Shown here: piece by piece, positions 49,036-62,125 of the stretch
Layout: every line of letters begins with the position of its first letter
Position numbering within the stretch: the stretch's first letter is position 1
NCBI RefSeq assembly: GCF_001483745.1
Contig: NZ_LQBL01000022.1
Location: forward strand, 1-64,000
From: Serinicoccus chungangensis
GTDB lineage: Bacteria > Actinomycetota > Actinomycetes > Actinomycetales > Dermatophilaceae
Reading direction: 5' to 3'
DNA length: 64,000 nucleotides
The notes under the pieces: model-generated
What the model saw: only the letters and a program-made list of their open reading frames with translations
What the model was told of the DNA's origin: nothing
Database searches by the model: none
Position numbers and translations under genes: made by a program

Positions 49036-49040
49036 GTGGT
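49036..49040 (+). repeat. Left target-site duplication GTGGT
   Basis: GTGGT directly abuts the left terminal repeat. An identical GTGGT follows the right terminal repeat at 62049-62053. A 5-bp duplication is typical of several DDE transposases. Confidence 0.75.
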
Positions 49041-49053
49041 GGGTAGTTCACGA
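49041..49053 (+). repeat. Left terminal inverted repeat
   Basis: GGGTAGTTCACGA. It continues inward as AATCCCCTGACCACGGGG, which resembles a second stretch of the right end (GTTCACGAAACCCCTGGTCA on the minus strand, about 62020-61992). Confidence 0.75.
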
Positions 49054-49165
49054 AATCCCCTGACCACGGGGTATGCAGACCCTCCGGTCGGGGCGGGTAC
49101 GTAAGTCGGGCGAGATTTGTACACCCGCACGGCGAACACACTAGAGATGCTCGGCGGAACCGTGC

Positions 49166-49717
49166 TCAGTCCCTCCGAGCAAGTGTCCCTTGATTGTCAG
49201 ACCACGGCTTGTGGTGACAGTGCTCGCTCTCACAAGCCTGCGGCTCTAGCACTGTGCCGTCCGAACCCGACACCTCGTGACGCTGGTCCCACCAAAGGGG
49301 AAAGACCGTCCTTCGCTGACCGTCGAAGGCAACCACCACACGCCGCGTGTCCACCTGCTCGACGCAGTAGGTCATCGTCACGATCTCCAACTGCTGCGAC
49401 ACATCGTCGTCCAGGCTGTTGACTCGGATCAGGTGTGCCCAGCGCTCCTCAGCGACTTGGCTCAAGCCCTCCTCAGAGAGCGCATGAACAGCAGAGCCAC
49501 GTCCGTGCGTCCGCTCCAGGCTAAAGACCTCATCTAGAGACAGTTCGTTCAACCGAGCCAGGTATCCCGCAAGGAGATAGAACTGCTCACATCGAGGCTC
49601 GGGCCAGGGGAACGGCCCGTCGTGGTCCGCGATGGACCAGTCGAGCGACCATGGCCCGGGCGCGGGCGACAGCAACGGGTAAGAAGCCTTGGCCGGCTTC
49701 TTTCTTCGACCCCCCAT
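49166..49717 (-). CDS. Candidate toxin paired with Panacea antitoxin
   Basis: A 183-residue protein of no family I can name. It starts with a basic tail (MGGRRKKPAK); the middle reads EQFYLLAGYLARLNELSLDEV, and the C-terminal part QVDTRRVVVAFDGQRRTVFPLWWDQRHEV (split here) looks like a compact beta-rich small-toxin core. ATG 49717 lies 10 bp after the stop of the Panacea-domain gene, so the two form an operon. PanA antitoxins are normally encoded beside the toxin they neutralise, which makes this protein the likely toxin by position. Target unknown. It is the leftmost gene of the element. Confidence 0.55.
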   Translation of the reverse strand: MGGRRKKPAKASYPLLSPAPGPWSLDWSIADHDGPFPWPEPRCEQFYLLAGYLARLNELSLDEVFSLERTHGRGSAVHALSEEGLSQVAEERWAHLIRVNSLDDDVSQQLEIVTMTYCVEQVDTRRVVVAFDGQRRTVFPLWWDQRHEVSGSDGTVLEPQACESEHCHHKPWSDNQGTLARRD

Positions 49718-49727
49718 GAACCAGGAC

Positions 49728-50225
49728 TCACCGAGCCCAGGCCGGGAAGTTGATGTCCTCGACGTGGTGGACAGCCTCGTCCGACTCACTCAGATGGGTG
49801 TAGTAGACCTTCATCGACTCATGGGTGATGAACGCTGTGGACTGCTCCCCTGGGGCTGTTTGGCCGCGTGCGATCTTCCAAGGGTCCTCGGCGTGGGTCA
49901 ACTCACTGAGTTGCGCCGCGCTCATGTTCCCGTAGGAGTCCAGGACCGCCTCCAGGGTTTGTACCTGGTCCTCGCTCAACTTGGCGGGGTTGCCGTGAAC
50001 GAAGTCCTGCGGGGTCACCTTGTACTTGCCCTTATGCACCCTGAAGAGGGGGTAGACGACAGGACCGTTCGCCCAGGCCTGAATGGGCTCAGCGAAGAGT
50101 GGTTCGTCATCCCAGACGAGCGACCAGGCTTGGCCGTAGTACACCAACTTCTGAAGTTTCATGGCAGTCATCTGGCCCTTCTTTCCCAGGATGTAAGCCG
50201 CCACATCTGCTGCGTTGACCGTCAT
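49728..50225 (-). CDS. Panacea-domain (SocA/GepA-like) antitoxin
   Basis: A 165-residue protein with a full Panacea (DUF4065) domain: MTAMKLQKLVYYGQAWSLVW (about 19-38), PIQAWANGPVVYPLF (about 47-61), AQLSELTHAEDPW (about 105-117) and a final ITHESMKVYYTHL. This domain serves as a versatile antitoxin in PanAT systems and appears as the SocA proteolytic adaptor. ATG with GGAGGAGG upstream. It is first gene of a two-gene operon with the candidate toxin. Confidence is high for the domain and moderate for the TA role. Confidence 0.85.
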   Translation of the reverse strand: MTVNAADVAAYILGKKGQMTAMKLQKLVYYGQAWSLVWDDEPLFAEPIQAWANGPVVYPLFRVHKGKYKVTPQDFVHGNPAKLSEDQVQTLEAVLDSYGNMSAAQLSELTHAEDPWKIARGQTAPGEQSTAFITHESMKVYYTHLSESDEAVHHVEDINFPAWAR

Positions 50226-50381
50226 GATGCTTCGCCTCCTCCGGCTCTCTCATCGACCAGCGCTCTCCCGCTGGCCCCGACATCAGTATGACGCAGAGCA
50301 CCCACAGAGTGCAGGAGGTGGGTGACGCTGGCAACTCTTCTCCCGGCGCAGGTCCACTTCTGGCTGTTCTCGCCGCCTGTC

Positions 50382-50401
50382 AGACCCCTCTGCAAGGGTC
50401 T
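50382..50401. promoter_or_regulatory. Dyad upstream of the 50.4-kb gene
   Basis: AGACCC (50382-50387) and GGGTCT (50396-50401) form a 6-bp inverted repeat just before the ATG at 50407. It lies in the 181-bp gap between divergent genes; operator or leader hairpin are both possible. Nothing else is clear in that gap. Confidence 0.35.
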
Positions 50402-50406
50402 TATCC

Positions 50407-51183
50407 ATGCAGCGCGCGTACACGTCCCTCCATTCCGGAACCGACCACGGGCAGGACCTCGTGACAGCACTGCTGTGGGCACGAGACCACCTGAGGAGCG
50501 ACCAGCACGTGACGCTGTGGTGCTCTGGTCAAGAGGCGCTACCGAAGGGTTGGGAGGCCCGATTCGTCAGGGAGGGTGTCGAAGTCGTCGCAGAGTGGCC
50601 TCGCCGTCGCGGCGGGACCGGCCCAAGGGCCTTCGCCGGTCCACTGGTGGCGGTCGGTTTCAACACGCTGGACACTGTGATCGAGGTCGAGCCGTTCAGA
50701 CATCCCATGTGTTTCGTGGGAGCGTACGACCCTCGCAACGATGAGCGCTTCGACATGCATGAGGACCACCCTCACGTCAGATGGGTGGAAGCCTTCGAGC
50801 CGAGGAACCTGGCTGGACCGATCATCTCGGTCCCGAACCCTTTGATCGAGGACGGTGTGGTGGCCAGCGCCCTGGAGTCCTTCACGGCCATGACCTACGG
50901 CGGCAAGACGATGTACGACTCGCGGGACGGAGGCCGAGTTACTTCTGGCTTGATGATGCTGCACCAGAACGGCCACCGCTTCGACCCCGAGCGCCTCTTC
51001 TCCGCAGCGTTGCGTGCGGGCTGGAAGGGCTCTCAGGCGTTGTGCTTTCGTAACGTGGCACGCGAGGTGGCGCGAGGCGTTCGCAAGCGCCCCAGCGAGA
51101 GGCTCGGGCTCGGATCGCTGGAGCGATGGCGTTCGAAGGCGAGCGAGCAGCACCCGTGTGGCTACCTCTTCCACGACTCGTAG
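50407..51183 (+). CDS. Hypothetical cargo protein
   Basis: A 258-residue soluble protein, no signal or membrane segment. The first half alternates beta strands and helices (HVTLWCSGQEALP, GPLVAVGFNTLDTVIEV, AGPIISVPNPLIED), suggesting a Rossmann-like fold; the second half is helical and basic (REVARGVRKRP). No catalytic motif is recognised. ATG 50407 directly follows the dyad. Its 3' end overlaps the convergent gene by 22 bp. Lower GC codon use than the host genes. Confidence 0.6.
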   Translation: MQRAYTSLHSGTDHGQDLVTALLWARDHLRSDQHVTLWCSGQEALPKGWEARFVREGVEVVAEWPRRRGGTGPRAFAGPLVAVGFNTLDTVIEVEPFRHPMCFVGAYDPRNDERFDMHEDHPHVRWVEAFEPRNLAGPIISVPNPLIEDGVVASALESFTAMTYGGKTMYDSRDGGRVTSGLMMLHQNGHRFDPERLFSAALRAGWKGSQALCFRNVAREVARGVRKRPSERLGLGSLERWRSKASEQHPCGYLFHDS

Positions 51184-51860
51184 AAGCCGTAGATGTCGAG
51201 CACCTTGGCTACCGGCATCCGCCACTCGGTCGCTGCCCCGGTGGTGAAGTCCCATACCGGGTAGCGGTCACGGGCGCGCTCGATCTCGTCCTCGTGCTCG
51301 ACCCAGACGTCGTAAAGCATCCCGAGGGCATCCGCACCTGCCCGATTCCAGGCCCTTCGCTCGGTCGGGCTCTCGGATAGTCCCTTGAAAGTCTGAACGA
51401 AGAAGGTGTCGAACGAGGGGATGCAGCCCCAGACGCCCATCATGACCTTCGAGACGAGGGTCAATCCTGTCCGGTCGGCGGGGATCAGAGCAGCGCGCAC
51501 TTCGTCCCAGGCGACGTTGAACGCCTCAAGTCGAGCGGTGTCCACATAGTCCGGAACGTCCCATCCGCGCAACGCCTTGTTGTGCTTCTCTATCACCCCG
51601 ATGACGGCCTGATAGTGAAGTGCGTTCGTCTCGTGGAAGAGGAAGGACGAGCCGCGCAGCATGCCCCAGGAGGCGAGGTAGTAGCACAGGTGCAAGCAGG
51701 AGGTCTCCATCACCTGTGTCGGCTCAGGATGGTCCTGGAAGTGCGAGTAGCACAGGTCCCAGGACCGCTCGCGACGGCGTGACGGGGCACGGGAGTCTCC
51801 ATCTCCACCGAGGAAGCCTTCAACGGCTCGCTCGATGCTTCCAGGCGAGATCGGCTTCAT
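51162..51860 (-). CDS. Hypothetical partner of PD-(D/E)XK protein
   Basis: A 232-residue protein, start ATG 51860 (TGAGGATG: the stop of the upstream nuclease gene, two bases, then the ATG); GTG 51878 is an alternative overlapping start. Largely helical with ETSCLHLCYYLASWGMLRGS and WGCIPSFDTFFVQTFKGL; it may be a DNA- or ligand-binding helical bundle. No family is recognised. The tight coupling to a nuclease-like gene suggests a two-gene system, possibly defensive. Confidence 0.6.
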   Translation of the reverse strand: MKPISPGSIERAVEGFLGGDGDSRAPSRRRERSWDLCYSHFQDHPEPTQVMETSCLHLCYYLASWGMLRGSSFLFHETNALHYQAVIGVIEKHNKALRGWDVPDYVDTARLEAFNVAWDEVRAALIPADRTGLTLVSKVMMGVWGCIPSFDTFFVQTFKGLSESPTERRAWNRAGADALGMLYDVWVEHEDEIERARDRYPVWDFTTGAATEWRMPVAKVLDIYGFYESWKR

Positions 51861-51862
51861 CC

Positions 51863-52306
51863 TCAGTCCGCCGTCCACGTCGCGCAGTCATAGGTCCCAT
51901 CCGCACGGAGCAGGACCACATGCACCCTCGCGTCTCGCAGGGCGGTGCGGGTGGCGTTGTGGAGGCTGGCGTAGCGAGGGAAGGCGGGGAAGACGAGCAG
52001 ACTCTCCCGCTCGGGCTGCGCATCCCGCAGCATCAGCGCAGCGAGGATGCCGTGCGAGAACCAATGACGCGCCTGGGTCGTCGGCTTGGTCTTCTTGGTC
52101 TCGTGCGCTCGGCGAGGGTCCACGTACTTGTCGGAGGGGTAGCCCTTGACCTCGGCCCCGAGCAGACGCTCTCCACGTCGGGCCAGCACGTCCACCCCTC
52201 GCGACTTCTTCGCGGTGTCCGCCAGCGACTCGATCTCCCAGTCGACTGCGCGAAGGACGTCCGCGAAGACATCCTGGACGGCACCTTCCCACGGCCACGG
52301 CTGCAT
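51863..52306 (-). CDS. PD-(D/E)XK nuclease-fold protein
   Basis: A 147-residue protein with a Mrr/Holliday-resolvase-like core: SRGVDVLARRGERLLGAEVKGY gives Asp39, Glu52 and Lys54, the catalytic D-ExK triad. A helical N-terminus with VQDVFADVLRAVDWEIESLAD precedes it. Such small nucleases occur in restriction and anti-phage loci. ATG 52306. The following gene starts 2 bp after its stop. Confidence 0.68.
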   Translation of the reverse strand: MQPWPWEGAVQDVFADVLRAVDWEIESLADTAKKSRGVDVLARRGERLLGAEVKGYPSDKYVDPRRAHETKKTKPTTQARHWFSHGILAALMLRDAQPERESLLVFPAFPRYASLHNATRTALRDARVHVVLLRADGTYDCATWTAD

Positions 52307-52514
52307 GGCGTGAGGCTACTGCGTTCAGCGACCCGCCCCGTCTGCCTACCGTCGCGCCAGGGCGAGCGGGCTGGTCACAAGGCCCTCGCCAGCCGCATCA
52401 GAACCTCGCCCCCCACCCAGAGGCACTGTGTCGGTCCGGCATGGCAGGCTCCGTCCTACGGGCACCGCGCCACGCGGAGCCGACAACAAGATACCGACAT
52501 CAATGGATGCTAAG

Positions 52515-52534
52515 GTCGACGCTATAACGTCGAC
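52515..52534 (+). promoter_or_regulatory. Promoter dyad with two GTCGAC sites
   Basis: GTCGACG (52515-52521), CTATAA, CGTCGAC (52528-52534): a perfect inverted repeat that contains two copies of GTCGAC, with the -10-like TATAAC at 52523-52528 between them. It lies 20 bp upstream of the HTH start codon. The linked endonuclease belongs to the XamI family, whose type member recognises GTCGAC. The rest of 52307-52514 shows no gene. Confidence 0.6.
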
Positions 52535-52553
52535 TCTAGCCGGGGAGGCCACC

Positions 52554-52772
52554 ATGACCGCAGCAGTACGCCAGCGTCGCCCACACAACGAACTGAAGAA
52601 CGCTATGCGCGACTTCCTTCGCGGCAGAGGCGAACCCGCGAGTATCGCTGAGATCAAGTCCGGCGTCGAAGGCGTGGTAGGAAGGGCACCCGACTCCTCC
52701 TACAGGAGCGCCCTTCAGGACGAGCGCTACTTTCTCCGGGTCGCACGCGGAGTGTTCGAGTCCAATGAGTAG
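52554..52772 (+). CDS. Small winged-helix protein of the R-M operon
   Basis: A 72-residue HTH protein. NELKNAMRDFLRGRGEPASI, AEIKSGVEGVVG and SSYRSALQDERYFLRVARGVF form a winged helix like the HB1/HARE-HTH domains found next to restriction genes. ATG 52554 follows GGGGAGG; the upstream ATG 52503 would lie before the promoter dyad. It overlaps the methyltransferase start by 8 bp, so it is probably the operon's controller. Confidence 0.75.
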   Translation: MTAAVRQRRPHNELKNAMRDFLRGRGEPASIAEIKSGVEGVVGRAPDSSYRSALQDERYFLRVARGVFESNE

Positions 52773-54384
52773 GCAGTTGGCTCTCACCGGCCTGGAGAGC
52801 ATCGAAAGCCTGTCCGACCTCACGGCCCTCTGCTTCGGTCTAGGTGCGGACAGTATCGGCACCATCACTCAGAGTGAGCGGTCTTTGTCGCGCACTCAGG
52901 CGTCATCGGGGCTGATCGAACAGGCACGTCAGGCGATTGTGGGGGGTCAGGACTTCCTGGGCGACACCTACTGCGCGCTGAAGTCGGTCGAGGCCCGACG
53001 TCCTGAGGGTCAGACCTACACCCCAGCCAGCATTGTTCAAACGATGCTCGCATGGGCCGGCGATCAGACGACTCCAGCCCGCATCGTTGACCCCGGAGTG
53101 GGTTCCGGGCGATACGCACTGGCCGCAGCCCAGAAGTTCCCGGAGGCCCACGTGGTAGCGGCAGACACTGACCCCCTCGCCCTGCTGATGACTCGCGCGA
53201 CGGCAGCAGTGCTCGGAGTTGGGGAGCGTCTGGACCTTGTGCTGGGCGACTACCGATCACTCACGCTCCCGCAGATCGGTGGGCCCACCCTGTTCATCGG
53301 GAACCCGCCCTACGTACGCCATCATCAGATAGATCATGGCTGGAAGCGCTGGTTCCTTGACAAGGCGAGAACGAAAGGACTGGGAGCAAGCGCGCTCGCG
53401 GGCCTACACGTGCATTTCTTCCTCGCGACGGCCCTGCACGCACGCGCAGGCGATTACGGTGCCTTCATCACCAGCAGTGAGTGGCTGGACGTGAACTACG
53501 GCAAGTTGATGCGGGAACTGCTCGTGTCGGACTTCGGCGCAGACTCGATCCACGTACTTGACCCTGAATCTGCGCCGTTTGCCGATGCCCAGGTCACCGG
53601 CACGATCACCTGCTTCAAGGTTGGGGAACAGCCGGAATCAGTCAAGATGCGGCAGGTCTCATCCATCGCGGAACTCGGGACCCTGGCCGAGGGACGCGAG
53701 GTCTCACGCGCTCGACTCAGCGAATCCACCAGGTGGTCTGTCTTCACACGGGTCTCCCCCACCCTTCCTGAGGGGTACATCGAACTAGGTGAGTTGGCTC
53801 GCGTGCATCGTGGGGCCGTGACAGGCGCAAACAAGGTGTGGGTGCGACGAGACGGCGAGACATCACTCCCTGCCAGCGTGCTGTTCCCTTCCGTGACCAA
53901 AGCCCGTGAACTCTTCACCGCTGGAGATCGGCTACGGGTGAAGGACGGCCTACGAGTAGTGATCGACCTCCCACAGGACCTCGACGCCTTCGCTGATGAC
54001 GAGCGCCACGAGATCGAGCGCTTTCTGTCCGAAGCCAAGAAGGCTCACGTTGACGAGGGGTACATCGCCTCATCGCGGAAGAGTTGGTACAGCGTTGGCC
54101 TACGTGCCCCCGCTCCGATCCTCGCGACCTACATGGCGCGACGCCCGCCCGCGTTCGTGCGTAACGACGTGGCCGCCAGACACATTAACATTGCTCACGG
54201 TCTATACCCCCGTGAGGACATGTCTGAGGAACTTCTGGACAACCTTGCGCGCTACCTGCGTGGGTCAGTGCGGACTAGCCAGGGACGGACCTACGCAGGC
54301 GGGCTGACCAAGTTCGAACCGAGGGAGATGGAGCGCCTTCCCGTTCCCGCCCCCGAGACTCTCTTCGAGATTGGGGCGCTCTGA
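52765..54384 (+). CDS. N6-adenine DNA methyltransferase (type II)
   Basis: A 539-residue methyltransferase that should protect host DNA from the linked endonuclease. SAM-binding motif I DPGVGSGR (about 109-116) and catalytic NPPY (180-183) identify an amino-methyltransferase, most likely adenine-N6. The C-terminal half is the target-recognition region, with a partly conserved TaqI-like specificity stretch (LGELARVHRGAVTGANKVWV). It starts within the HTH gene end and is followed by the endonuclease 15 bp later. Confidence 0.9.
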   Translation: MSRQLALTGLESIESLSDLTALCFGLGADSIGTITQSERSLSRTQASSGLIEQARQAIVGGQDFLGDTYCALKSVEARRPEGQTYTPASIVQTMLAWAGDQTTPARIVDPGVGSGRYALAAAQKFPEAHVVAADTDPLALLMTRATAAVLGVGERLDLVLGDYRSLTLPQIGGPTLFIGNPPYVRHHQIDHGWKRWFLDKARTKGLGASALAGLHVHFFLATALHARAGDYGAFITSSEWLDVNYGKLMRELLVSDFGADSIHVLDPESAPFADAQVTGTITCFKVGEQPESVKMRQVSSIAELGTLAEGREVSRARLSESTRWSVFTRVSPTLPEGYIELGELARVHRGAVTGANKVWVRRDGETSLPASVLFPSVTKARELFTAGDRLRVKDGLRVVIDLPQDLDAFADDERHEIERFLSEAKKAHVDEGYIASSRKSWYSVGLRAPAPILATYMARRPPAFVRNDVAARHINIAHGLYPREDMSEELLDNLARYLRGSVRTSQGRTYAGGLTKFEPREMERLPVPAPETLFEIGAL

Positions 54385-54399
54385 CTTAGGCTGGGAGAC

Positions 54400-55317
54400 A
54401 TGGCCCACAGCCCAGCCCCCAGGTGGTCTCAAGACCAACTCGCAGAGCACGCCGCCATGGCGGTCCGGGACTTCAGGGACGTTCGCATGCACGAACCCTT
54501 GGAGCAGTACCTGGAGACGTTTGATCAGTACCGCACGGCAGTGGAGAACCTCATCGAGGGCACGGTGGACTTGTCGCGGCTCAGCGATGAGGCCGTCGAG
54601 TACGTGACCGATCCGCATCTCCTGACTGCTGTCCGCTACCTTGCTTCCCCAGCGGTGAGCGAAGACGACCTGAAGATTCTGGCGGAGGCCGTCCTTAGTC
54701 CCGGACGGCTGCGCAAGGACCCTGAGATGGCGAAGCGAGTGATCGAGACCGTGATGCTCGGCCTGGACCGGAATCGGTTCCCGTGGGTCAGTGAGGACCG
54801 GGAACCAAGCCAGGCCGAGCGCGAGATGGCCATCATCTCCACCACCGCTCTCATCGCCACGCAGCGCGTTCAGACGGACAGGCGAAACAGCGCCAAGAAC
54901 GTCCAGGAGGACGCAGTAGCCGAGTACCTCCTATCCATCGGTTTGACACAGGTGGCGAACCGTTCCGTACGCACAGCACGCGATCTCCCGTCGCCGGGCG
55001 AGTTCTGCCGGGAGAGTTTGTTCGGCAGTCGAAAGGCCGACCTCATCGTCAGCCTGTGGGATGGCCGCGCGATGCCGACCGAGTGCAAGGTCAGCAACTC
55101 GTCCACGAACAGCGTCAAGCGCTTGAACAACGACGCGGCGAAGAAGGCGAAGACCTGGAACGAAGAGTTTGGTTCGGCCAACACCGTGCCCGCGGCGGTA
55201 CTTTCTGGAGTCTTCAAGGTGCATAATCTGGAGCAGGCCCAGGCAGATGACCTGACCATCTTCTGGGCCCATGACCTAGAGGCCATGGGCGCTTTCATCG
55301 AGAGCACACTCTCCTGA
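54400..55317 (+). CDS. XamI-family type II restriction endonuclease
   Basis: A 305-residue protein. ALIATQRVQTDRRNSAKNVQE, GEFCRESLFGSRKADLIVSL and CKVSNSSTNSVKRLNNDAAKK match the XamI family as I know it. Asp214, Glu228 and Lys230 (ADLIV ... TECK) form the PD-(D/E)XK active site. XamI-type enzymes cleave at GTCGAC. The companion methyltransferase lies directly upstream. The 3' end overlaps a convergent small gene by 23 bp. Confidence 0.8.
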   Translation: MAHSPAPRWSQDQLAEHAAMAVRDFRDVRMHEPLEQYLETFDQYRTAVENLIEGTVDLSRLSDEAVEYVTDPHLLTAVRYLASPAVSEDDLKILAEAVLSPGRLRKDPEMAKRVIETVMLGLDRNRFPWVSEDREPSQAEREMAIISTTALIATQRVQTDRRNSAKNVQEDAVAEYLLSIGLTQVANRSVRTARDLPSPGEFCRESLFGSRKADLIVSLWDGRAMPTECKVSNSSTNSVKRLNNDAAKKAKTWNEEFGSANTVPAAVLSGVFKVHNLEQAQADDLTIFWAHDLEAMGAFIESTLS

Positions 55318-55492
55318 CAGAGGCGACCACACCTGCGTCCGCCCAACCCTCGAACGTCTGGGGGTAGTTCTGCCGCTCACCCTGCCCCGCCCGCAGAGCC
55401 TCCCGCGCAAGACGCCTGTCCTCCCGCTCGTCGGCAGCGATCCGAGCCTCCAGATCGGCCATCCAGTCCGGCAGAGGCTCTGGCCCGCTCAC
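55295..55492 (-). CDS. Small hypothetical protein
   Basis: A 65-residue charged protein (ARIAADEREDRRLAREALRAG forms a long helix). Start ATG 55492 overlaps the stop of the upstream membrane-protein gene (ATGA), so the two are coupled. The 3' end overlaps the endonuclease gene. No known family. Confidence 0.5.
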   Translation of the reverse strand: MSGPEPLPDWMADLEARIAADEREDRRLAREALRAGQGERQNYPQTFEGWADAGVVASVRRVCSR

Positions 55493-56055
55493 ACGTCCAC
55501 CAGGTGATCGAGGTGGTGGGCTTGGAGACGCTGTGCGGCCTCAAAGGCCGTCAGGTCGCCTGAGCGCACTGCCTGCTCGGCCCACTCGCGCTCCGCCCAG
55601 AAGGCGGCGTAGCGCTCGTTGAGGTTCCAGCAGATGCGGCGGTTGTTCTCTCGCAACTGGCGGACGACGAAGATGACCGAACCGGGAAGCCAGCCAGTGA
55701 GGACGGCGGCGATGAACGCGCCCATCACGGCTCCAAGGATGTCCATGGGGAGCGGCCACTCGGGGTCGGCCAGGCCGAAGACGAGCATGAAGATGCTCAC
55801 CGGGACGGCGACGACGGCCATGCCCAGGGCGAGGCTGGTGACGACCCGCAGCGGTAGCGAGCGCTTCTTCTGCGTGAGCGGTAGGACGGGCTGCGCGGAC
55901 GGCAGGTGGCCGTCCCGCCCGAGCACGAAGAGGTCCTGCTCGATCTGCGCGTTCATGGTCTGCGCGGCCCTCTCGAAGGCTCGGTTCGCGGCTCCGACAG
56001 TTGCGCCGAACATCCCGGCTCCGAGGCCGAGTGCTGCTCCGCTACTGGCTTTCAT
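55489..56055 (-). CDS. Hypothetical membrane protein
   Basis: A 188-residue protein with two membrane helices (about 75-97 VVTSLALGMAVVAVPVSIFM and about 105-127 ILGAVMGAFIAAVLTGWLPG) and a glycine/alanine-rich N-terminus that may be a third hydrophobic patch. The C-terminal cytoplasmic helix (RYAAFWAEREWAEQA) is charged. It lies 3 bp after the lipoprotein gene and is coupled to the small gene downstream. Function unknown. Confidence 0.6.
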   Translation of the reverse strand: MKASSGAALGLGAGMFGATVGAANRAFERAAQTMNAQIEQDLFVLGRDGHLPSAQPVLPLTQKKRSLPLRVVTSLALGMAVVAVPVSIFMLVFGLADPEWPLPMDILGAVMGAFIAAVLTGWLPGSVIFVVRQLRENNRRICWNLNERYAAFWAEREWAEQAVRSGDLTAFEAAQRLQAHHLDHLVDV

Positions 56056-56058
56056 GGC

Positions 56059-57294
56059 TCACTCCTTGATCTGGTTTGCGGTGACGATGGCGTCTTCGGG
56101 GTCCCAGTGGATGGCGATGTCGCCGTCCATGACGCCTATGGGCAGCCGTGCCCCTTCAGCCAGATCAGACACCACGGGCTCGCCGGACGGCGGCAGGTCC
56201 ACGAAGCGCGTCTCGTTGGCTCCTTGGTGGGCGACCCCGAATGCTCGCCCCGAGTCCGTAATGGCGTGCAGAATCACGCGACGCTCACCCTCGCCGCCAC
56301 CGACGCACTCCACGTCGCCGTTGGCGTCGATGCGCATGGAGTCGAGGACGCCCCACTCACGACCTGGGCTGGTGACGAACTGCGTGGGTGTCGGTGGATC
56401 GCACTCTGCGTTGGAGAGCACCTCCCCGGTCTCGACGTCCAGCACCTGCAACATGCCCTCGCCGTAGGGGGCAGCGAAGCGCACCAGCAGAAGGTCCTCG
56501 GCGTTGCTGGCTTCGATGGCTCCGATCTCGAACTCTGGCCCTGGGGCGAGGTCCTCCGAGTCGTAGGACTCCCCGGCGTACCGCTCGGGAGCCTCCTCGG
56601 TGCCGCCGCTGAGTGTGAAGGCGTGATCTCCGACCGTCACCACACCCACGAGGTCGTCGGTCGCCGGGAGTGCCTCCACCTCCCCGGAGGCAGTGACCGC
56701 GACCGCCTCGCGCTCACCAGGGTCGGATCGAACCACGAAGCCGAGACCCATCCCACCGATCTGAGGCAGGCTGCTCTCGTCACCGGGCACCGTGACCTCC
56801 TCGATCACGGTTCCCGAGGCGATGTCGAGCAGAGTCACCCGTACTTCCTGAGTGTCGGCGTCCAGGCCTTCGCCGTCAGACCTACCACCATCGACCACTG
56901 CGATGACCTCTGGCGCGACCTGACGCAACAGCGGGTAAGGCGAGCCCGGATTCCGTTCGTCGCCGGTGAAGGCCTCCCAGCCCCGCGACCACGCTTCCTG
57001 GCCCTCCGCGTCCAGGGCACGCACCTGCGTCCCGTCGAGCACCACGACCCGCTCGGCAGTCACAACAGGCGTCCACGGAGCCTCCTGAAGCCCGAGCGTG
57101 ATCCCCCAGGCAGGCTCCGCGAAGACCTCCGCCACCGGCAGCGAGACAGCGGGCTCCGATGGTTCTGCGGTGCTGGTCGTGACGGCCTGCGCGTCTGCCG
57201 TGCTCGGGGTCGAGTCCCCTCCAGAGGCGCTCGAACAAGCGGAAACCGTAACGAGCGTTACGGCCATCAGCGTGGCGGTGCGGGTGTGAGTCAT
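56059..57294 (-). CDS. Lipoprotein with probable beta-propeller
   Basis: A 411-residue secreted lipoprotein: signal peptide ending in the lipobox VSAC (about Cys20), a threonine/serine linker, then repeated beta-strand blocks (ERVVVLDGTQVRALDAEGQE, VRVTLLDIASGTVIEEV, GMLQVLDVETGEVLS) typical of PQQ/quinoprotein-like propellers. ATG 57294 follows GGAGGGAGG. It leads a three-gene operon with the membrane protein and the small protein. Role unknown; a surface exclusion or adhesion function for the element is speculation. Confidence 0.72.
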   Translation of the reverse strand: MTHTRTATLMAVTLVTVSACSSASGGDSTPSTADAQAVTTSTAEPSEPAVSLPVAEVFAEPAWGITLGLQEAPWTPVVTAERVVVLDGTQVRALDAEGQEAWSRGWEAFTGDERNPGSPYPLLRQVAPEVIAVVDGGRSDGEGLDADTQEVRVTLLDIASGTVIEEVTVPGDESSLPQIGGMGLGFVVRSDPGEREAVAVTASGEVEALPATDDLVGVVTVGDHAFTLSGGTEEAPERYAGESYDSEDLAPGPEFEIGAIEASNAEDLLLVRFAAPYGEGMLQVLDVETGEVLSNAECDPPTPTQFVTSPGREWGVLDSMRIDANGDVECVGGGEGERRVILHAITDSGRAFGVAHQGANETRFVDLPPSGEPVVSDLAEGARLPIGVMDGDIAIHWDPEDAIVTANQIKE

Positions 57295-57373
57295 AGGTGA
57301 GTCCTCCCTGCGCACTGGCGTGACCGCCCCAAGGGGGACCGTCAAGTGGTGAGACACCCTCAGTGAAGCACCT

Positions 57374-57402
57374 TTGACCAGATTGGTGCAAGGGCTTGTA
57401 CT
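57374..57402 (+). promoter_or_regulatory. Possible promoter of the HTH pair
   Basis: TTGACC (57374-57379) and TGTACT (57397-57402) spaced by 17 bp. Transcription would begin near 57409, which favours a leaderless message or the GTG at 57436 as start of the next gene. Weak -10 match. Confidence 0.4.
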
Positions 57403-57696
57403 GTGCTCGCTGCCGAAAACCAGTGGGCTATCCCGGTGAGCATCTTCCCGGTCCCTGAGCCCGAACTTGACCGCCTACCTGCGATCTTCTCCGAGCGGAA
57501 GACGGCCAGCGGGCTGTCCTACGACCAACTCGCGAACCGCAGTGGCCTGACGAGGACGACACTGATGAACGTCGCGCACGGGCGCTACCACGGTGACCTC
57601 CGTACCTGGTTGCGGCTGTCGAAAGCCTGGCAGATCAGCCTGGACGAGTTGCTCGCGCCCGTTTGGGAGGGCAAAGCAGGCGAAAAGGCCAAGTGA
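57403..57696 (+). CDS. XRE-like helix-turn-helix protein
   Basis: A 97-residue protein from GTG 57403 (GTG 57436 is an alternative, 86 residues). The HTH is LSYDQLANRSGLTRTTLMNV with ISLDELL at the end, the usual Cro/C1 core. It overlaps the next gene by 4 bp (GTGA). Probably a regulator of the pair or of other cargo genes. Confidence 0.78.
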   Translation: MLAAENQWAIPVSIFPVPEPELDRLPAIFSERKTASGLSYDQLANRSGLTRTTLMNVAHGRYHGDLRTWLRLSKAWQISLDELLAPVWEGKAGEKAK

Positions 57697-58580
57697 GCCG
57701 CCCTGGCGCGAGTCCTTCCAGCCGGAACGCGAAGCCCTGGCAGGTGCTGAACTCGATCTCTCCACGCTCCAGAGACATGGCCTTCGCGGGACGAGGCAAC
57801 TGGCACAAGCCTGTCGAGTCTCTGCCGCTCGCCGTGCGCATCGCCCTGGCGGTGGCCCGTGCCTTGTTCGATGAGGTGGATGCGCGGCAGTTCGATGACT
57901 CAGACGGCTCGACCTACCGCATCGAGGCCTGGGAGAGGCTCGGGCGAGAGGTCGATATCAGTGAGCGATCACTACGGCGTCTGGAGGCGGGCGAACGGTG
58001 GGTCTCCCTCCCCGAACTCGACCGCCTGGCCCGCCATCACACCGTGGGCAAGCGCCTCCGAAAGACCCTTGCGTCCATGAAGGTGAACCTGCTACACCCT
58101 GGGCCAAATCTGGCCAGTGACGGCGGATCACCCGCCCGCCCCGTCACCGTGGAAGACATGAGCAACGACACCCGCGCCGTACTGGAGCGAGAGGTACGAG
58201 AGCGGATCGACCGCTTGGTCCGTGCGCAGGCGTCGGAACCACCTGGCGCCGAAGAGGTCGACTGGCGTCGTGTGGAGTGGGCCATTCAGGTGCCACGGTC
58301 TACCCCGGAGCCCACGCCGGACTTGGCGCTAGAACTGAAGATTCGAGGACTGAGCATCACGCAGTTGGTGCGGACAGTCCTCGCCGAGACTGCTGGCCCG
58401 ACCCGGGTCAGCACCATCTGGAGCGGGGTGAACCGCATCGTGCAAACACTGCATGAAGATCGCGGCATGCCCCTGATCCAGGCCCACCGTCGTCAGATCA
58501 CCGAAGCACTGACCTACCTGCGCGCTCGCGGAGAGGTCCACTCCGACGACGGATTGCACACCCTCATCAGAAAGGACTGA
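57693..58580 (+). CDS. Hypothetical protein coupled to HTH gene
   Basis: A 295-residue protein from GTG 57693. An N-terminal third has an HTH-like core (REVDISERSLRRLEAGERWVS). The C-terminal third (LSITQLVRTVLAETAGPTRVS, QITEALTYLRARGEVHSDDG) looks like a winged helix. Basic, no membrane segment. The two HTH-like units suggest DNA binding, possibly element maintenance or transposition control. Family not recognised. Confidence 0.6.
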   Translation: MSRPGASPSSRNAKPWQVLNSISPRSRDMAFAGRGNWHKPVESLPLAVRIALAVARALFDEVDARQFDDSDGSTYRIEAWERLGREVDISERSLRRLEAGERWVSLPELDRLARHHTVGKRLRKTLASMKVNLLHPGPNLASDGGSPARPVTVEDMSNDTRAVLEREVRERIDRLVRAQASEPPGAEEVDWRRVEWAIQVPRSTPEPTPDLALELKIRGLSITQLVRTVLAETAGPTRVSTIWSGVNRIVQTLHEDRGMPLIQAHRRQITEALTYLRARGEVHSDDGLHTLIRKD

Positions 58581-58596
58581 CCACCAACCATGAAGA

Positions 58597-58612
58597 CGCG
58601 CCCTTGGGCGCG
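58597..58612 (+). terminator. Short GC hairpin after the HTH pair
   Basis: CGCGCCC (58597-58603) and GGGCGCG (58606-58612), directly after the 58580 stop. Compact terminator-like stem; the next 100 nt to the convergent gene hold nothing obvious. Confidence 0.5.
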
Positions 58613-58712
58613 CGCACATGAAGAAACCCCCACGCTCTGCGAACGCGAGGGCTACTTCGTAGGTTTTGGAACCACCTACAAGATAGCCGCATCGCTCAAC
58701 CAGATCAAGGGT

Positions 58713-59048
58713 TCAGCCTTCTGCCGCGCGTCGATCCCGTCCTGCCCTGATCTCCGGCCCAGGCCACAGATCTCGGCCCAGCCACTCCTCCAGCCGTGCG
58801 ATGGCACCGAAGTCGGGGAGCACCTCGCCGTCGAGCGTGCGCTCGATGGTCTTGCGGCTCACCTGAGCCTCGCGCTCCACAGCCCGCAGCGAGAGGCCGT
58901 CACCGTCATCGAGGGCTTGCCGCAGTCGCAGCACGAACTGCTGAGCGTAGGCCGCCGAGACCGGCGCGCCCTTCTTCAGCCGTCCAGTCGGCCACGACCC
59001 CCGCGCAACGTACTCCCGTGGCGCGGCGTCACCTCCGGACCTGGGCAT
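58713..59048 (-). CDS. HTH regulator divergent from the transposition genes
   Basis: A 111-residue protein with an XRE-like core (LRQALDDGDGLSLRAVEREAQVSRKTIERTLDGEVLP, split here) and LEEWLGRDLWP at the end. ATG 59048. It is divergent from the transposition operon, whose promoter carries a 16-bp palindrome, so it is the likely repressor of that operon. Confidence 0.72.
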   Translation of the reverse strand: MPRSGGDAAPREYVARGSWPTGRLKKGAPVSAAYAQQFVLRLRQALDDGDGLSLRAVEREAQVSRKTIERTLDGEVLPDFGAIARLEEWLGRDLWPGPEIRAGRDRRAAEG

Positions 59049-59074
59049 GACTACAGCCTAGGTCAGCAGCAGGC

Positions 59075-59102
59075 TTGCCATGTCAGCGTCAGCCTTTACT
59101 AT
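59075..59102 (+). promoter_or_regulatory. Promoter of the transposition genes
   Basis: TTGCCA (59075-59080), 16-bp spacer, TACTAT (59097-59102): a good sigma-70-type promoter. The predicted start site is near 59109, just ahead of the palindrome at 59112-59127. Confidence 0.65.
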
Positions 59103-59111
59103 AGTGGGCAC

Positions 59112-59127
59112 GGGTCTTATAAGACCC
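59112..59127. promoter_or_regulatory. 16-bp palindromic operator
   Basis: GGGTCTTATAAGACCC is a perfect palindrome located directly after the predicted transcription start and 22 bp before the ATG at 59150. A bound repressor here would block the transposition operon. Confidence 0.7.
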
Positions 59128-59149
59128 ATCACCGACTGGGAGCCTGGGT

Positions 59150-60103
59150 ATGCCGAAGCATCGCGTCATCGGAGGTCGCATCGTGACGACTCCCGAAGAG
59201 GTCTTCGCGCACTATCGCCCGAGGCCGCATCTCGTAGACCCCGCCGTCTGGACCAAGGTCCGCCCCTCCGCCGTCGAGGCAACCCGAGCCGCCGACTACG
59301 TGAGCGTCGCCTCGGCGCTCAACGCCATGAGCGCCGTCACCCACTTCTTGGTGTGGACGCACGGGCAAGGGCTCGGCCTCGAACTGGAGAAGTGCTTCCT
59401 GCCGGAGCACGTCGAGCACTACTGCGCGAGCACGATGCAGTCCCTGTCTCCGGAGTCCCGTTCGACCCGTCGCGGCTACCTCCGCAGAGTCGGTCGGGCC
59501 TGTACCAAAGATGCTCCGTGGCCCGCTGAGCCGAAACCGTTCTCGGGCAACAACACAATCCTCCCGCCCTACACGCCGGAGGAGGTCGAAGGATTCTGGA
59601 AGGCTGCGGAGGCGCAGAGCACCCCGCTGCGCACTCGTGTCGCCCTCGCCATGCTGACGCTGGGCCTCGGGGCTGGTGTCCAGCCCGGCGAAATGTTGCG
59701 GGTAACTGCCGACCACGTGAGCATCCACCCTGACGACCACCGCCTCATGGTGATCCGCCTAGAGTCCAGAACCACCCCGGTGCTGGCGAAGTACACCAAC
59801 CGGCTCCGGGACCTGTGCTCCCGCTATCCCGAGGAGCCGCTGGTCGGCAAGCACCGACCTACGGCGAAGGACCCGCTGGGCACGCTTCGGCAGGACGTGG
59901 CCTGGCCGGGCTGGCTTCCCCGGTTCCGCGTCTCTCGCCTGCGCACCACCTGGATGGCGGACGTGCTCACCCTCGACCTGCGTATCAGCGAGTTCATGGT
60001 GATCGCAGGCAACGTCTCGTCCAAGTCGCTGGAGGTCATCGCCCCCGATGTCCCTGGCCGTTGGGAGGGCGACGCCTATCTGTTCAAGGGGGCGGGACTG
60101 TGA
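59150..60103 (+). CDS. Degenerate tyrosine-recombinase-fold protein
   Basis: A 317-residue protein laid out like a phage-type integrase: SAM-like N-terminal domain (about 50-130), then the catalytic-fold domain (about 140-310). The expected Arg-I box reads GAGVQPGEML (Arg to Gln), the HxLRHT box reads VSRLRTTWM (only the Arg of the pair is kept), the later His/Trp is Asn in GNVSSKSL, and no nucleophilic Tyr follows. It is therefore unlikely to cut DNA and more likely to bind a target or end sequence. It overlaps the DDE transposase gene by 4 bp (GTGA), so the two are made together. Confidence 0.75.
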   Translation: MPKHRVIGGRIVTTPEEVFAHYRPRPHLVDPAVWTKVRPSAVEATRAADYVSVASALNAMSAVTHFLVWTHGQGLGLELEKCFLPEHVEHYCASTMQSLSPESRSTRRGYLRRVGRACTKDAPWPAEPKPFSGNNTILPPYTPEEVEGFWKAAEAQSTPLRTRVALAMLTLGLGAGVQPGEMLRVTADHVSIHPDDHRLMVIRLESRTTPVLAKYTNRLRDLCSRYPEEPLVGKHRPTAKDPLGTLRQDVAWPGWLPRFRVSRLRTTWMADVLTLDLRISEFMVIAGNVSSKSLEVIAPDVPGRWEGDAYLFKGAGL

Positions 60104-61830
60104 AGCAGCACGATCCCGTTACCGAGCACGTCTTCCGTCGAGCCGTCGCCGCCGTCCACGCCGGAACCCTCGCGAACATCGTGCAGCAGGACATGACGTC
60201 CACGGTGGGACGCAGCAGGTCCCAGCGTTGGGACGCCATGTTCGTGCTCTTCATGGTCGCGGCCATCGAAGGCTACGGAGAACTGCACCTGACGTCCGTG
60301 CATGAGGTCAGCGAACGCCTGAGCCGGAAGCAGGTCGAGCAGATCGGACTGCGGTTGCCCGTCACCTACAGCCAGGTGGAGAGCGCCGTCTCGGACCTCG
60401 CGGACGCCATGACCGAACAGGTGCACCCTGAGACCGGCGAGGTTCAGGAAGCGAGACTCTCCCTCTCCCTGACCGACTTCATGACGAGCCTGGTCTCACA
60501 GGTCATTCCTCGCCCACTGCGTGGACGAGCGACGCTGGCCCTGGACTCCACGGACTACGAGGCCTGGTCGAGAAGACGGTCCTGGGCCAGCCACATGAGA
60601 CCTGACGACGCGCCCGGGTCACTACCCGAGCCGGACTTCGAGCCGCCGAGGAAGCGCGCCGTGAACGAGCCCGGGTGGCCCAAGCCTGGTCACGACGGCA
60701 GGCTTCAGCACAGCGTCGATCCAGACGCGCGCGATGGCTACCGCAGCGGGAAGAACCTCGCCCGCAAAGGCATCTTCTCCGGCTGGGACGTCCACCTGGC
60801 GGCGCACATTCCCGAGCACGGAGGGCATTCCGAGGCTGCGCTCACCCAAGCGGTGTGCCTCGCTCCGGCAGGCTCCTACAAGGCGGCGGCTGGCGTGGAG
60901 GTCGTCGACTCGCTCGTCCGTGCCGGAACGGCACCGGAGACGCTTCTGGTGGACCGGGGCTACTCCTACGCCAAGCAGGACGCCTGGGCACTTCCCCTGG
61001 TCGAGCGTGACGTGGAGCAGGTCTTCGACCTGCACCCCTCGCAGCGCGGCACCCGACCCGGGCCGATCAACGGCACGATCTGGGTGGACGGTGGCCTGTT
61101 CCTGGACCACCTCCCGAAGGACCTGCGCGACCTCCCGGGCTACAGCCTCGGGATGACCGCCACGGCGAAGGCACAACTCGCGCAGACCTACGACCGACGT
61201 CAGCCCTGGGCGTTCACACCCATGGGCGGGCCACACCCAGAGCGAGGCACGCAGCGCTTCCGAGGTCCGGCCTTGGCTGGACGAGTGCGCTGCGTCAATA
61301 ACAGCCGCTCGATGCGCCTGAACCCCGCGAGCAAGCCGACTACCTCCTGCCGGAAGGGTGAGACCTGCGCCTGCGGGAAGACGCTCACCCTTGCCCGGGA
61401 GGAGATGGCCCAACTGCGGCAGCGGGACCTGTTCGGGACCACAGCCTGGCGGGCGTCCTACGGTCGGCGCGGTGGAGTCGAGTCGCTCAACGCCTCACTC
61501 TCCGAGCACCACGGGCACCTGAGGCGCGGCTCCACCCGCGTGCTCGGCACGCACCGGACCGGCATCCTGCTCGGGTTCATCCTGGCCGCGACAAACGTGC
61601 GCATCCTGATGGCCTGCTACGGCTACGACATCGGGAACCCTCCACCGGAGGGCACCGAGATCAAGTCGCAGCCGTCGAAGAGCCAGGCACTGCACCGGAG
61701 GCTCCCGTTCAAGCGCCGCCAGCGCCGGGCGAAGAGCCGACCACCCGGGTCGGGCCCGCCCCGCTCCGTACCACCCCCGGGCAGCAGCACCGCCTGGGAG
61801 CCGCTGAAGGACAACACCAAGACCGACTGA
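60100..61830 (+). CDS. DDE transposase
   Basis: A 576-residue transposase, long for simple insertion sequences. The DDE triad is visible: first Asp in LALDSTDYEAW, second in LLVDRGYSYAK, and the Glu in YGRRGGVESLNASLSEH with the Y-(2)-R-(3)-E arrangement of IS4/IS1182-like DDE_Tnp_1 enzymes. A cysteine cluster (SCRKGETCACGK) lies between the last two. The C-terminal tail is basic and proline-rich. GTG 60100 overlaps the stop of the tyrosine-recombinase-like gene. It should act on the terminal repeats at 49041 and 62048. Confidence 0.85.
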   Translation: MKQHDPVTEHVFRRAVAAVHAGTLANIVQQDMTSTVGRSRSQRWDAMFVLFMVAAIEGYGELHLTSVHEVSERLSRKQVEQIGLRLPVTYSQVESAVSDLADAMTEQVHPETGEVQEARLSLSLTDFMTSLVSQVIPRPLRGRATLALDSTDYEAWSRRRSWASHMRPDDAPGSLPEPDFEPPRKRAVNEPGWPKPGHDGRLQHSVDPDARDGYRSGKNLARKGIFSGWDVHLAAHIPEHGGHSEAALTQAVCLAPAGSYKAAAGVEVVDSLVRAGTAPETLLVDRGYSYAKQDAWALPLVERDVEQVFDLHPSQRGTRPGPINGTIWVDGGLFLDHLPKDLRDLPGYSLGMTATAKAQLAQTYDRRQPWAFTPMGGPHPERGTQRFRGPALAGRVRCVNNSRSMRLNPASKPTTSCRKGETCACGKTLTLAREEMAQLRQRDLFGTTAWRASYGRRGGVESLNASLSEHHGHLRRGSTRVLGTHRTGILLGFILAATNVRILMACYGYDIGNPPPEGTEIKSQPSKSQALHRRLPFKRRQRRAKSRPPGSGPPRSVPPPGSSTAWEPLKDNTKTD

Positions 61831-61845
61831 CCGCCCCAGGCCGAT

Positions 61846-61878
61846 AGCCCCTGCCCCGCATCCCGCGAGGCAGGGGCT
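61846..61878 (+). terminator. Terminator of the transposition operon
   Basis: AGCCCCTGCC (61846-61855) and GGCAGGGGCT (61869-61878), with inner CGC/GCG pairing, 16 bp after the transposase stop codon. Confidence 0.75.
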
Positions 61879-61976
61879 TCATCATGCCTATCCGCGCTGG
61901 CCGGTCGGTGGTCCGCGCTCGCCGGTCGCCCGAGCGAGCCCGTGACAGCACTACAACTCACGTGAACAACAGACGG

Positions 61977-62015
61977 CGAAACCCCTGGTCAGAAGCGATC
62001 TGACCAGGGGTTTCG
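61977..62015. repeat. Subterminal hairpin at the right end
   Basis: A perfect 16-bp inverted repeat, CGAAACCCCTGGTCAG (61977-61992) and its complement (62000-62015), with a 7-nt loop. The motif GTTCACGAAA CCCCTG on its outer arm recurs at the left end of the element (49046 onward). It could be a transposase-binding structure and could also end transcription of tRNA-Lys, whose own terminator was displaced. Confidence 0.7.
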
Positions 62016-62035
62016 TGAACTCAGGTGGCAGTTCA

Positions 62036-62048
62036 TCGCGAACTACCC
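62036..62048 (-). repeat. Right terminal inverted repeat
   Basis: TCGCGAACTACCC, the reverse complement of GGGTAGTTCGCGA. It differs from the left repeat at one of 13 positions. Confidence 0.75.
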
Positions 62049-62049
62049 G

Positions 62050-62125
<76 letters not shown>

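Follow-up and report, generated by a model that had tools for sequence, protein, structure and literature searches.

The 3' ends of tRNA genes are classic attachment sites of integrase-borne islands, so that integrases are usually held responsible for islands in such places. Phages and integrative and conjugative elements (ICEs) commonly integrate at tRNA genes, and tRNA attachment sites also occur among Tn7-like elements and CRISPR-associated transposons (CASTs) (PMC11406308). Inactivated recombinases have been recruited as well: TnsF of Tn6022, a protein with an inactivated tyrosine-recombinase domain, is a target selector (Faure et al. 2023, PMC10293859). Here we compare with such systems an element of ∼13 kb in a stretch of 64,000 nucleotides from Serinicoccus chungangensis (contig NZ_LQBL01000022.1, positions 1 to 64,000; hereafter the window), which is inserted at the 3' end of a tRNA-Lys gene. 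We consider it probable that this element represents a family of site-specific DDE transposons with a catalytically dead integrase-like partner as target selector, a role that we infer from sequence comparisons.

Tn6022 shares with this family the combination of a dead recombinase, a DDE-type machinery, and a defined attachment site, but it is a Tn7-like element (TnsA, B, C, TniQ, E) that targets comM, and TnsF carries zinc fingers at its N-terminus, depends on TniQ, and keeps only a partial CAT domain (PMC10293859). The present family, in contrast, has one IS1182-like transposase and tRNA 3' ends as target, and TnsF resembles the integrase-like protein in fold type and proposed role only. The tRNA-targeting Tn7-like elements and CASTs (I-B2, I-D, V-K) also perform DDE transposition to tRNA sites, but use TnsD/TniQ or a CRISPR RNA together with Tn7-type partners (PMC11406308), none of which was found in the window element. 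Casposons resemble it in having terminal inverted repeats (TIRs) and a target-site duplication (TSD) with an unaltered target gene, but carry Cas1 and PolB genes and use an unrelated enzyme (PMC4046053); general scans of the window-element proteins gave no match to Cas1 or PolB.

The element and its empty site

The element spans positions 49041-62048 and has near-matching ends and an exact 5-bp duplication. Its left TIR, GGGTAGTTCACGA (49041-49053, forward strand), agrees with the right one, TCGCGAACTACCC (62036-62048, reverse strand), at 12 of 13 positions, and identical copies of GTGGT adjoin the two ends (49036-49040 and 62049-62053), as the initial annotation had described. The right copy consists of a trailer base, the CCA, and the discriminator of the intact target gene, tRNA-Lys(CTT) (62050-62125, reverse strand). 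The end motif occurs once more in a subterminal position further inside, as TTCGTGAACT at 62012-62021. When the border was fixed at the tRNA discriminator, an end scan returned 49041-62048 with the exact 5-bp TSD and a TIR of 12/14, and none of 40 shifted control positions reached this score. The interior has a lower GC content than the flanks (65.1% vs. 73.0%), and it contains a transposase, an integrase-like gene, and a restriction-modification (R-M) pair; both the GC difference and the presence of own transposition genes and defence cargo had been claimed beforehand. The genome holds one match each to the family transposase and to the integrase-like gene.

A search of the genus with the left flank gave matches in 30 of 31 genomes including the window's own, many of them partial only. 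L127, the genus mate that matches best (95% identity to the left-flank query), has an empty tRNA-Lys site, which reads ...GACGCCTCTCGAG-GTGGT-GCGCCC..., with the hairpin after the tRNA running directly into the single GTGGT. An empty site of this kind in a related genome is what the initial annotation had suggested looking for. The right end of the window element occurs in none of the 23 genus-mate rows of tRNA-Lys(CTT) 3' ends (54 bp shown each). The base before TGGT differs among these rows (e.g., ATGGT in L129), and only L127 has the full 5-mer beside a closely matching flank. The duplication therefore comprises 5 bp.

Taken together, the sequences support the reading of the window element as a single DDE element, complete in appearance, that lies at the CCA edge of tRNA-Lys and did not recombine into the tRNA; on this insertion point, proposed from the start, the empty site and the borders of the relatives (see below) agree. 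We also looked for what the initial annotation had named as evidence against a single element, namely, cargo shared by related genomes within different boundaries, or an empty site with both GTGGT copies or none, and found nothing that overturned the single-element reading. Recent mobility, another of its claims, is plausible, the site being empty in the genus mates read.

Relatives at tRNA 3' ends

Profile or protein searches gave matches in 6/97 relatives and, at higher ranks, in 26/396 genomes from the order, 29/396 from the phylum, and 26/186 from the family; these sets overlap, and the window's own genome is counted in each. Carriers include Streptomyces, Streptantibioticus, Streptacidiphilus, Cellulomonas persica, plasmid pSCL3 of S. 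clavuligerus, and Rhodococcus plasmids. Among viral contigs, four pattern matches contained no relative, and phages gave none. The first set analysed comprised 66 loci, of which 55 lie in wide stretches and the other 11, most of them weak, in small ones; it leaves out secondary fragments from genomes already represented as well as the plasmid matches H3 and H4. A convergent tRNA gene within -300 to +700 bp of the transposase end was present at 45 of these 66 loci, and in 36 of the 45 the distance was 180-290 bp (median 228). As controls, a tRNA on the same strand in this interval was found at 2/66 loci and one at 0.7-3.2 kb upstream at 0/66, where the stretch covered this region. In a second set of 20 loci, all from new genomes of the family search, 17 had a convergent tRNA, and relatives at tRNA genes, which the initial annotation had suggested looking for, recur in both sets. 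Some matches at tRNA loci are weak (e.g., L125, 620 bp away), and a few of the tRNAs counted may flank decayed copies. Some of the loci without a convergent tRNA were inspected by eye. L123 (G732, ∼1031-1300, transposase as forward strand) ends at the 3' end of a gene resembling transfer-messenger RNA (tmRNA), which suggests tRNA-like ends in general as targets. For L019 (at a contig end) and L122, the end lies at a 3' fragment of a tRNA, whereas L054 directly adjoins the next element.

To locate the borders, we applied an unconstrained scan (TSD of 3-9 bp, ends anywhere near the tRNA) to 42 tRNA loci of the first set. Eleven of the 42 were picked by eye from the top-three lists on the basis of a GGG-type or shared-motif TIR, and their ends were fixed before the border position was asked. 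Left ends of most other loci were not found in the stretch covered; L106 is a possible twelfth. In all 11 elements (2.5-15.6 kb in size for those resolved), the duplication is exact and its last base on the tRNA side is the discriminator, nucleotide (nt) 73. The duplications measure 5-8 bp (Lys 5; Ser 5, 5, 5, 5; Pro 5; Gly 6; Leu 6, 7, 7, 8). The chosen length was the first choice of the scan in 8/11. For L020, L092, L095, L097, and L109, a fraction of 0.03-0.17 of shifted control positions equalled the score. Eight loci of the second set resolve when the nt-73 rule is imposed (TSDs of 5-7 bp, no shifted control), two of them, L191 and L194, with TIRs of 14/14. As judged by eye, the end motif of a right end recurs ∼21-25 bp further inside. 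Over the resolved elements, duplications measure 5-8 bp at tRNA-Leu (mostly 6-7), 5 bp at Lys, Ser, and Pro, and 5-6 bp at Gly, i.e., the outer cut varies and the tRNA-side cut is constant. The 5-bp case at tRNA-Leu is L053, added via the L054 junction; the two share ATTGT.

Because the discriminator and CCA positions lie inside the duplication, insertion regenerates the tRNA, so that tRNA and CCA survive it. The left flanks of several elements proved to be right ends of older ones (L097, 20/20 bases; L107, 17/20; L109, 16/20), and L020 is flanked by the right end of an older element together with a second transposase piece. Successive elements therefore enter between the tRNA and their predecessor. 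Genome G897 contains two copies that are 100% identical over 2,779 bp and diverge right after the right-end motif, one at a tRNA-Leu and the other not; the sequence to the left of one copy is N, making this half a test only.

A strong, terminator-like hairpin lies just inside the right end of the window element (61977-62015, reverse strand). Transcripts that run out of tRNA-Lys would read it, and it may stand in for the original tRNA terminator, which the insertion displaced by 13 kb. Right-end hairpins with z < -5 were found in 19/40 elements (the window included) compared to 6/40 control stretches; at z < -2 the numbers hardly differ (25/40 vs. 23/40), so that the hairpin is not universal. 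We also considered insertion into terminators instead of tRNAs and rejected it, since the border is at nt 73 and native hairpins lie beyond it.

These sequence comparisons identify the window element as a member of a widespread bacterial family found recurrently at the same tRNA position. The family is apparently undescribed so far: searches of open-access literature, which take in few subscription-journal papers and preprints, returned no description of such elements, so that this absence is provisional.

Transposition module and target choice

The transposase (60100-61830, forward strand) has no Pfam match, including none to DDE_Tnp_1_6 or DDE_Tnp_1. It matches the NCBIfam IS1182 model NF033551 with its C-terminal part only (40.1 bits, E 2.1e-10) and misses the curated cut-off of 270 bits. 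The same model is matched by all six transposases of alignment A1, three of which also match DDE_Tnp_1_6 and two DDE_Tnp_1. Residues D149, D285, and E461 are invariant in the alignment, and a weak AlphaFold model places D149 in a strand, D285 directly behind another strand, and E461 in a helix, as is usual for RNase H-like transposases. By sequence, the family transposase is a diverged IS1182-like DDE transposase. Insertion sequences of the IS1182 family have a related DDE catalytic core, but the window transposase scores far below their cut-off and the element differs in its kilobase-scale cargo, integrase-like partner, and recurrent tRNA target. Tn3, Tn7, and Mu had been named initially as makers of 5-bp duplications; the closest transposase model here, IS1182, is none of these three.

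The GTG start of the transposase gene overlaps the stop codon of the integrase-like gene (59150-60103, forward strand), whose product is the proposed target selector. Structural matches show it to have the tyrosine-recombinase fold. The integrase-like proteins have lost nearly all R-K-H-R-H residues, and generally just R-II is kept. The column of the nucleophilic tyrosine was judged by eye on alignment A2: the tyrosine is absent from the window protein and present in one copy, the second integrase-like gene of L016. An integrase-like gene was found in 38 of the 40 loci with a long transposase frame. The initial annotation had listed it as cargo; the gene is indeed present, but it belongs to the transposition module in nearly all cases, and most of the catalytic residues are missing. 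Two integrase-like genes precede the transposase in L015, L016, L093, L098, L099, L101, L104, L108, L111, and L117. An apparent fusion of the two proteins in L097 was dismissed as a decayed, deleted frame. A helix-turn-helix (HTH) regulator gene (58713-59048, reverse strand) is divergent from the integrase-like gene and has homologues in 16/54 other loci.

With TIRs and a short exact TSD at a recurrent target, these elements have the traits of a site-specific DDE transposon. The position of the duplication implies that joining takes place between nt 72 and 73 on one target strand and 5-8 bp further downstream on the other. In the mechanism that we propose, the dead tyrosine-recombinase-fold protein would bind the 3' portion of the tRNA gene, where classical integrases have their attB, and place the transposase at the tRNA end. 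The divergent HTH gene might regulate the transposition module, and the right-end hairpin could supply the tRNA with a new terminator.

Several observations weigh against this view. ARAGORN detected no tRNA at 21/66 and 3/20 loci, and a recognisable right end without a tRNA is present in L051, where it adjoins what reads as groEL, in L087 and L179, and in the plasmid loci L014 and L015; no end was seen by eye for L057, L108, L111, L115, and L117. In L090, L097, and L107, the scan ranked longer duplications first (9, 7, and 7 bp), with which the border would fall within the acceptor stem, by 1-2 nt. The frame can slide along G/C runs at the ends, which lifts these lengths in the ranking, and we took the shorter length that aligns the end motifs. 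The AlphaFold model of the transposase is weak (pLDDT 52.9). The main evidence against the selector role comes from two other elements. The integrase-like protein of the G040 element is 66% identical to that of the window and the transposases are 33% identical, yet one element is at tRNA-Val and the other at tRNA-Lys; with such close integrase-like proteins at different tRNAs, target choice may follow the transposase. Furthermore, no integrase-like gene was found in the resolved element L116, which has a 7-bp TSD at tRNA-Leu.

We also mapped the tRNA isotype, with "none" as one label, on the protein trees. The integrase-like tree of 41 rows requires 17 changes compared to a mean of 21.6 after shuffling (0/200 as low), which indicates that lineages tend to keep their tRNA. 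For matched sets of 42, the transposase and integrase-like trees both need 13 changes; shuffling gave a mean of 18.9 for the former (0/200 as low as 13) and 17-20 in five shuffles for the latter. With equal numbers, the trees do not show which of the two proteins governs target choice.

The alternative that survives best is that the transposase itself reads the end of the tRNA gene and the dead recombinase-like protein is a regulator, an end-binding architectural factor, or an immunity factor. Besides L116 and the G040 pair, it draws on structural matches to the dead tyrosine-recombinase entries MrpR, YopR, and SroF (PDB 8a0a, 8bj6, 9rd5). These act as DNA-binding repressors; they are alike in using a recombinase fold for DNA binding, but are phage regulators and are not known to partner a transposase. 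We regard this alternative as unlikely, though deserving serious weight. Targeting by the transposase alone is at odds with the integrase fold, the near-constant presence of the integrase-like gene and the occurrence of two such genes in some elements, as well as with the TnsF precedent (PMC10293859) and the common use of tRNA genes by phages and ICEs (PMC11406308). Given its fold, its almost invariable linkage, and the example of TnsF, we still hold the selector role of the integrase-like protein to be more likely.

Very improbable, in our view, is an integrase-type genomic island that entered tRNA-Lys by tyrosine recombination between att sites with the transposase as passenger. The location at a tRNA 3' end and the integrase-fold gene would fit, but we rejected it: the catalytic residues are lost, the flanking repeats measure just 5-8 bp with TIRs inside, the empty site has one 5-bp copy, and the distance between transposase and tRNA is nearly constant in relatives. 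Hardly any probability remains for a Tn7-like or CAST-like element finding the tRNA by TnsD/TniQ or a guide RNA: such elements have tRNA sites and also make 5-bp duplications, but 6/6 member transposases match the IS1182 model and Pfam and NCBIfam scans of the window-element proteins, which included no CRISPR search, yielded no TnsC/TniQ match, and this candidate was rejected as well. The anatomy of the elements is well supported, and it is the targeting mechanism, with the integrase-like protein as selector, that we infer.

Cargo and significance

In the window element, the left part starts with an open reading frame (ORF) without Pfam match (49166-49789, reverse strand), a possible toxin partner judging from its position only, beside a gene for a SocA/Panacea-domain antitoxin-like protein (49728-50225, reverse strand; Pfam SocA_Panacea, E 3.1e-19). 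Three cargo proteins without assigned function follow (50407-51183, forward; 51162-51878 and 51863-52306, both reverse), and G040 homologues exist for all three (76% over 173 aa, 70%, and 71%). The R-M pair comprises an Eco57I-type N6 DNA methyltransferase (52765-54384, forward; Pfam Eco57I, E 4.5e-8) and a XamI-type restriction endonuclease (54400-55317, forward; Pfam RE_XamI, E 3.6e-48; PADLOC REase_II, E 4.1e-58). A short ORF without Pfam match (52428-52772) overlaps the start of the methyltransferase gene and may belong to the R-M operon. Further downstream are a putative lipoprotein-like protein, so named from its N-terminus by eye (56059-57357, reverse; no Pfam match, G040 homologue 43%), and an HTH protein of the Cro/C1 type (57403-57696, forward; Pfam HTH_3, E 1.8e-4, under the curated cut-off). 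The G040 element (L017, 1-19071) shares cargo, HTH, and integrase-like genes with window positions 50407-60100, and its right end is very different. On sequence grounds, modules seem to be exchanged between elements.

To survey cargo elsewhere, we scanned 12 chosen proteins of six other elements, leaving out L092, L095, L099, and L020. With the R-M pair of the window included, six of the seven sampled elements carry a defence-type gene: a C5 methylase and a type II endonuclease-like protein in L097, an EcoRI-type methylase, a GmrSD/HNH enzyme, and Abi_2 in L109, a type IIG enzyme in L093, an OLD-like nuclease in L116, and, suggestive only, an AlbA_2 protein with a HATPase domain in L107. No clear defence gene was found among the scanned proteins of L090. 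The element in L116 (8948-14468) measures 5.5 kb and holds the nuclease and the transposase, still at tRNA-Leu with its 7-bp duplication. Most of the sampled cargo consists of R-M and other anti-phage genes.

With somewhat less assurance than for the family itself, we propose a phylum-wide superfamily of defence-carrying elements with a single IS-type DDE transposase and no AAA+ ATPase, in which a domesticated, dead integrase would confer site specificity by reading tRNA or tmRNA genes, joining at nt 72/73 would regenerate the tRNA, and successive elements would pile up at the same tRNA. A DDE transposon family would then do the job of integrases at tRNA ends, apparently by recycling an integrase as guide. 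After TnsF, this would be a second example of target selection by a dead tyrosine recombinase, and the two genes would make a compact candidate system for inserting DNA at a defined site without loss of the tRNA. In actinobacteria, a class of defence islands linked to tRNAs would be accounted for in this way.

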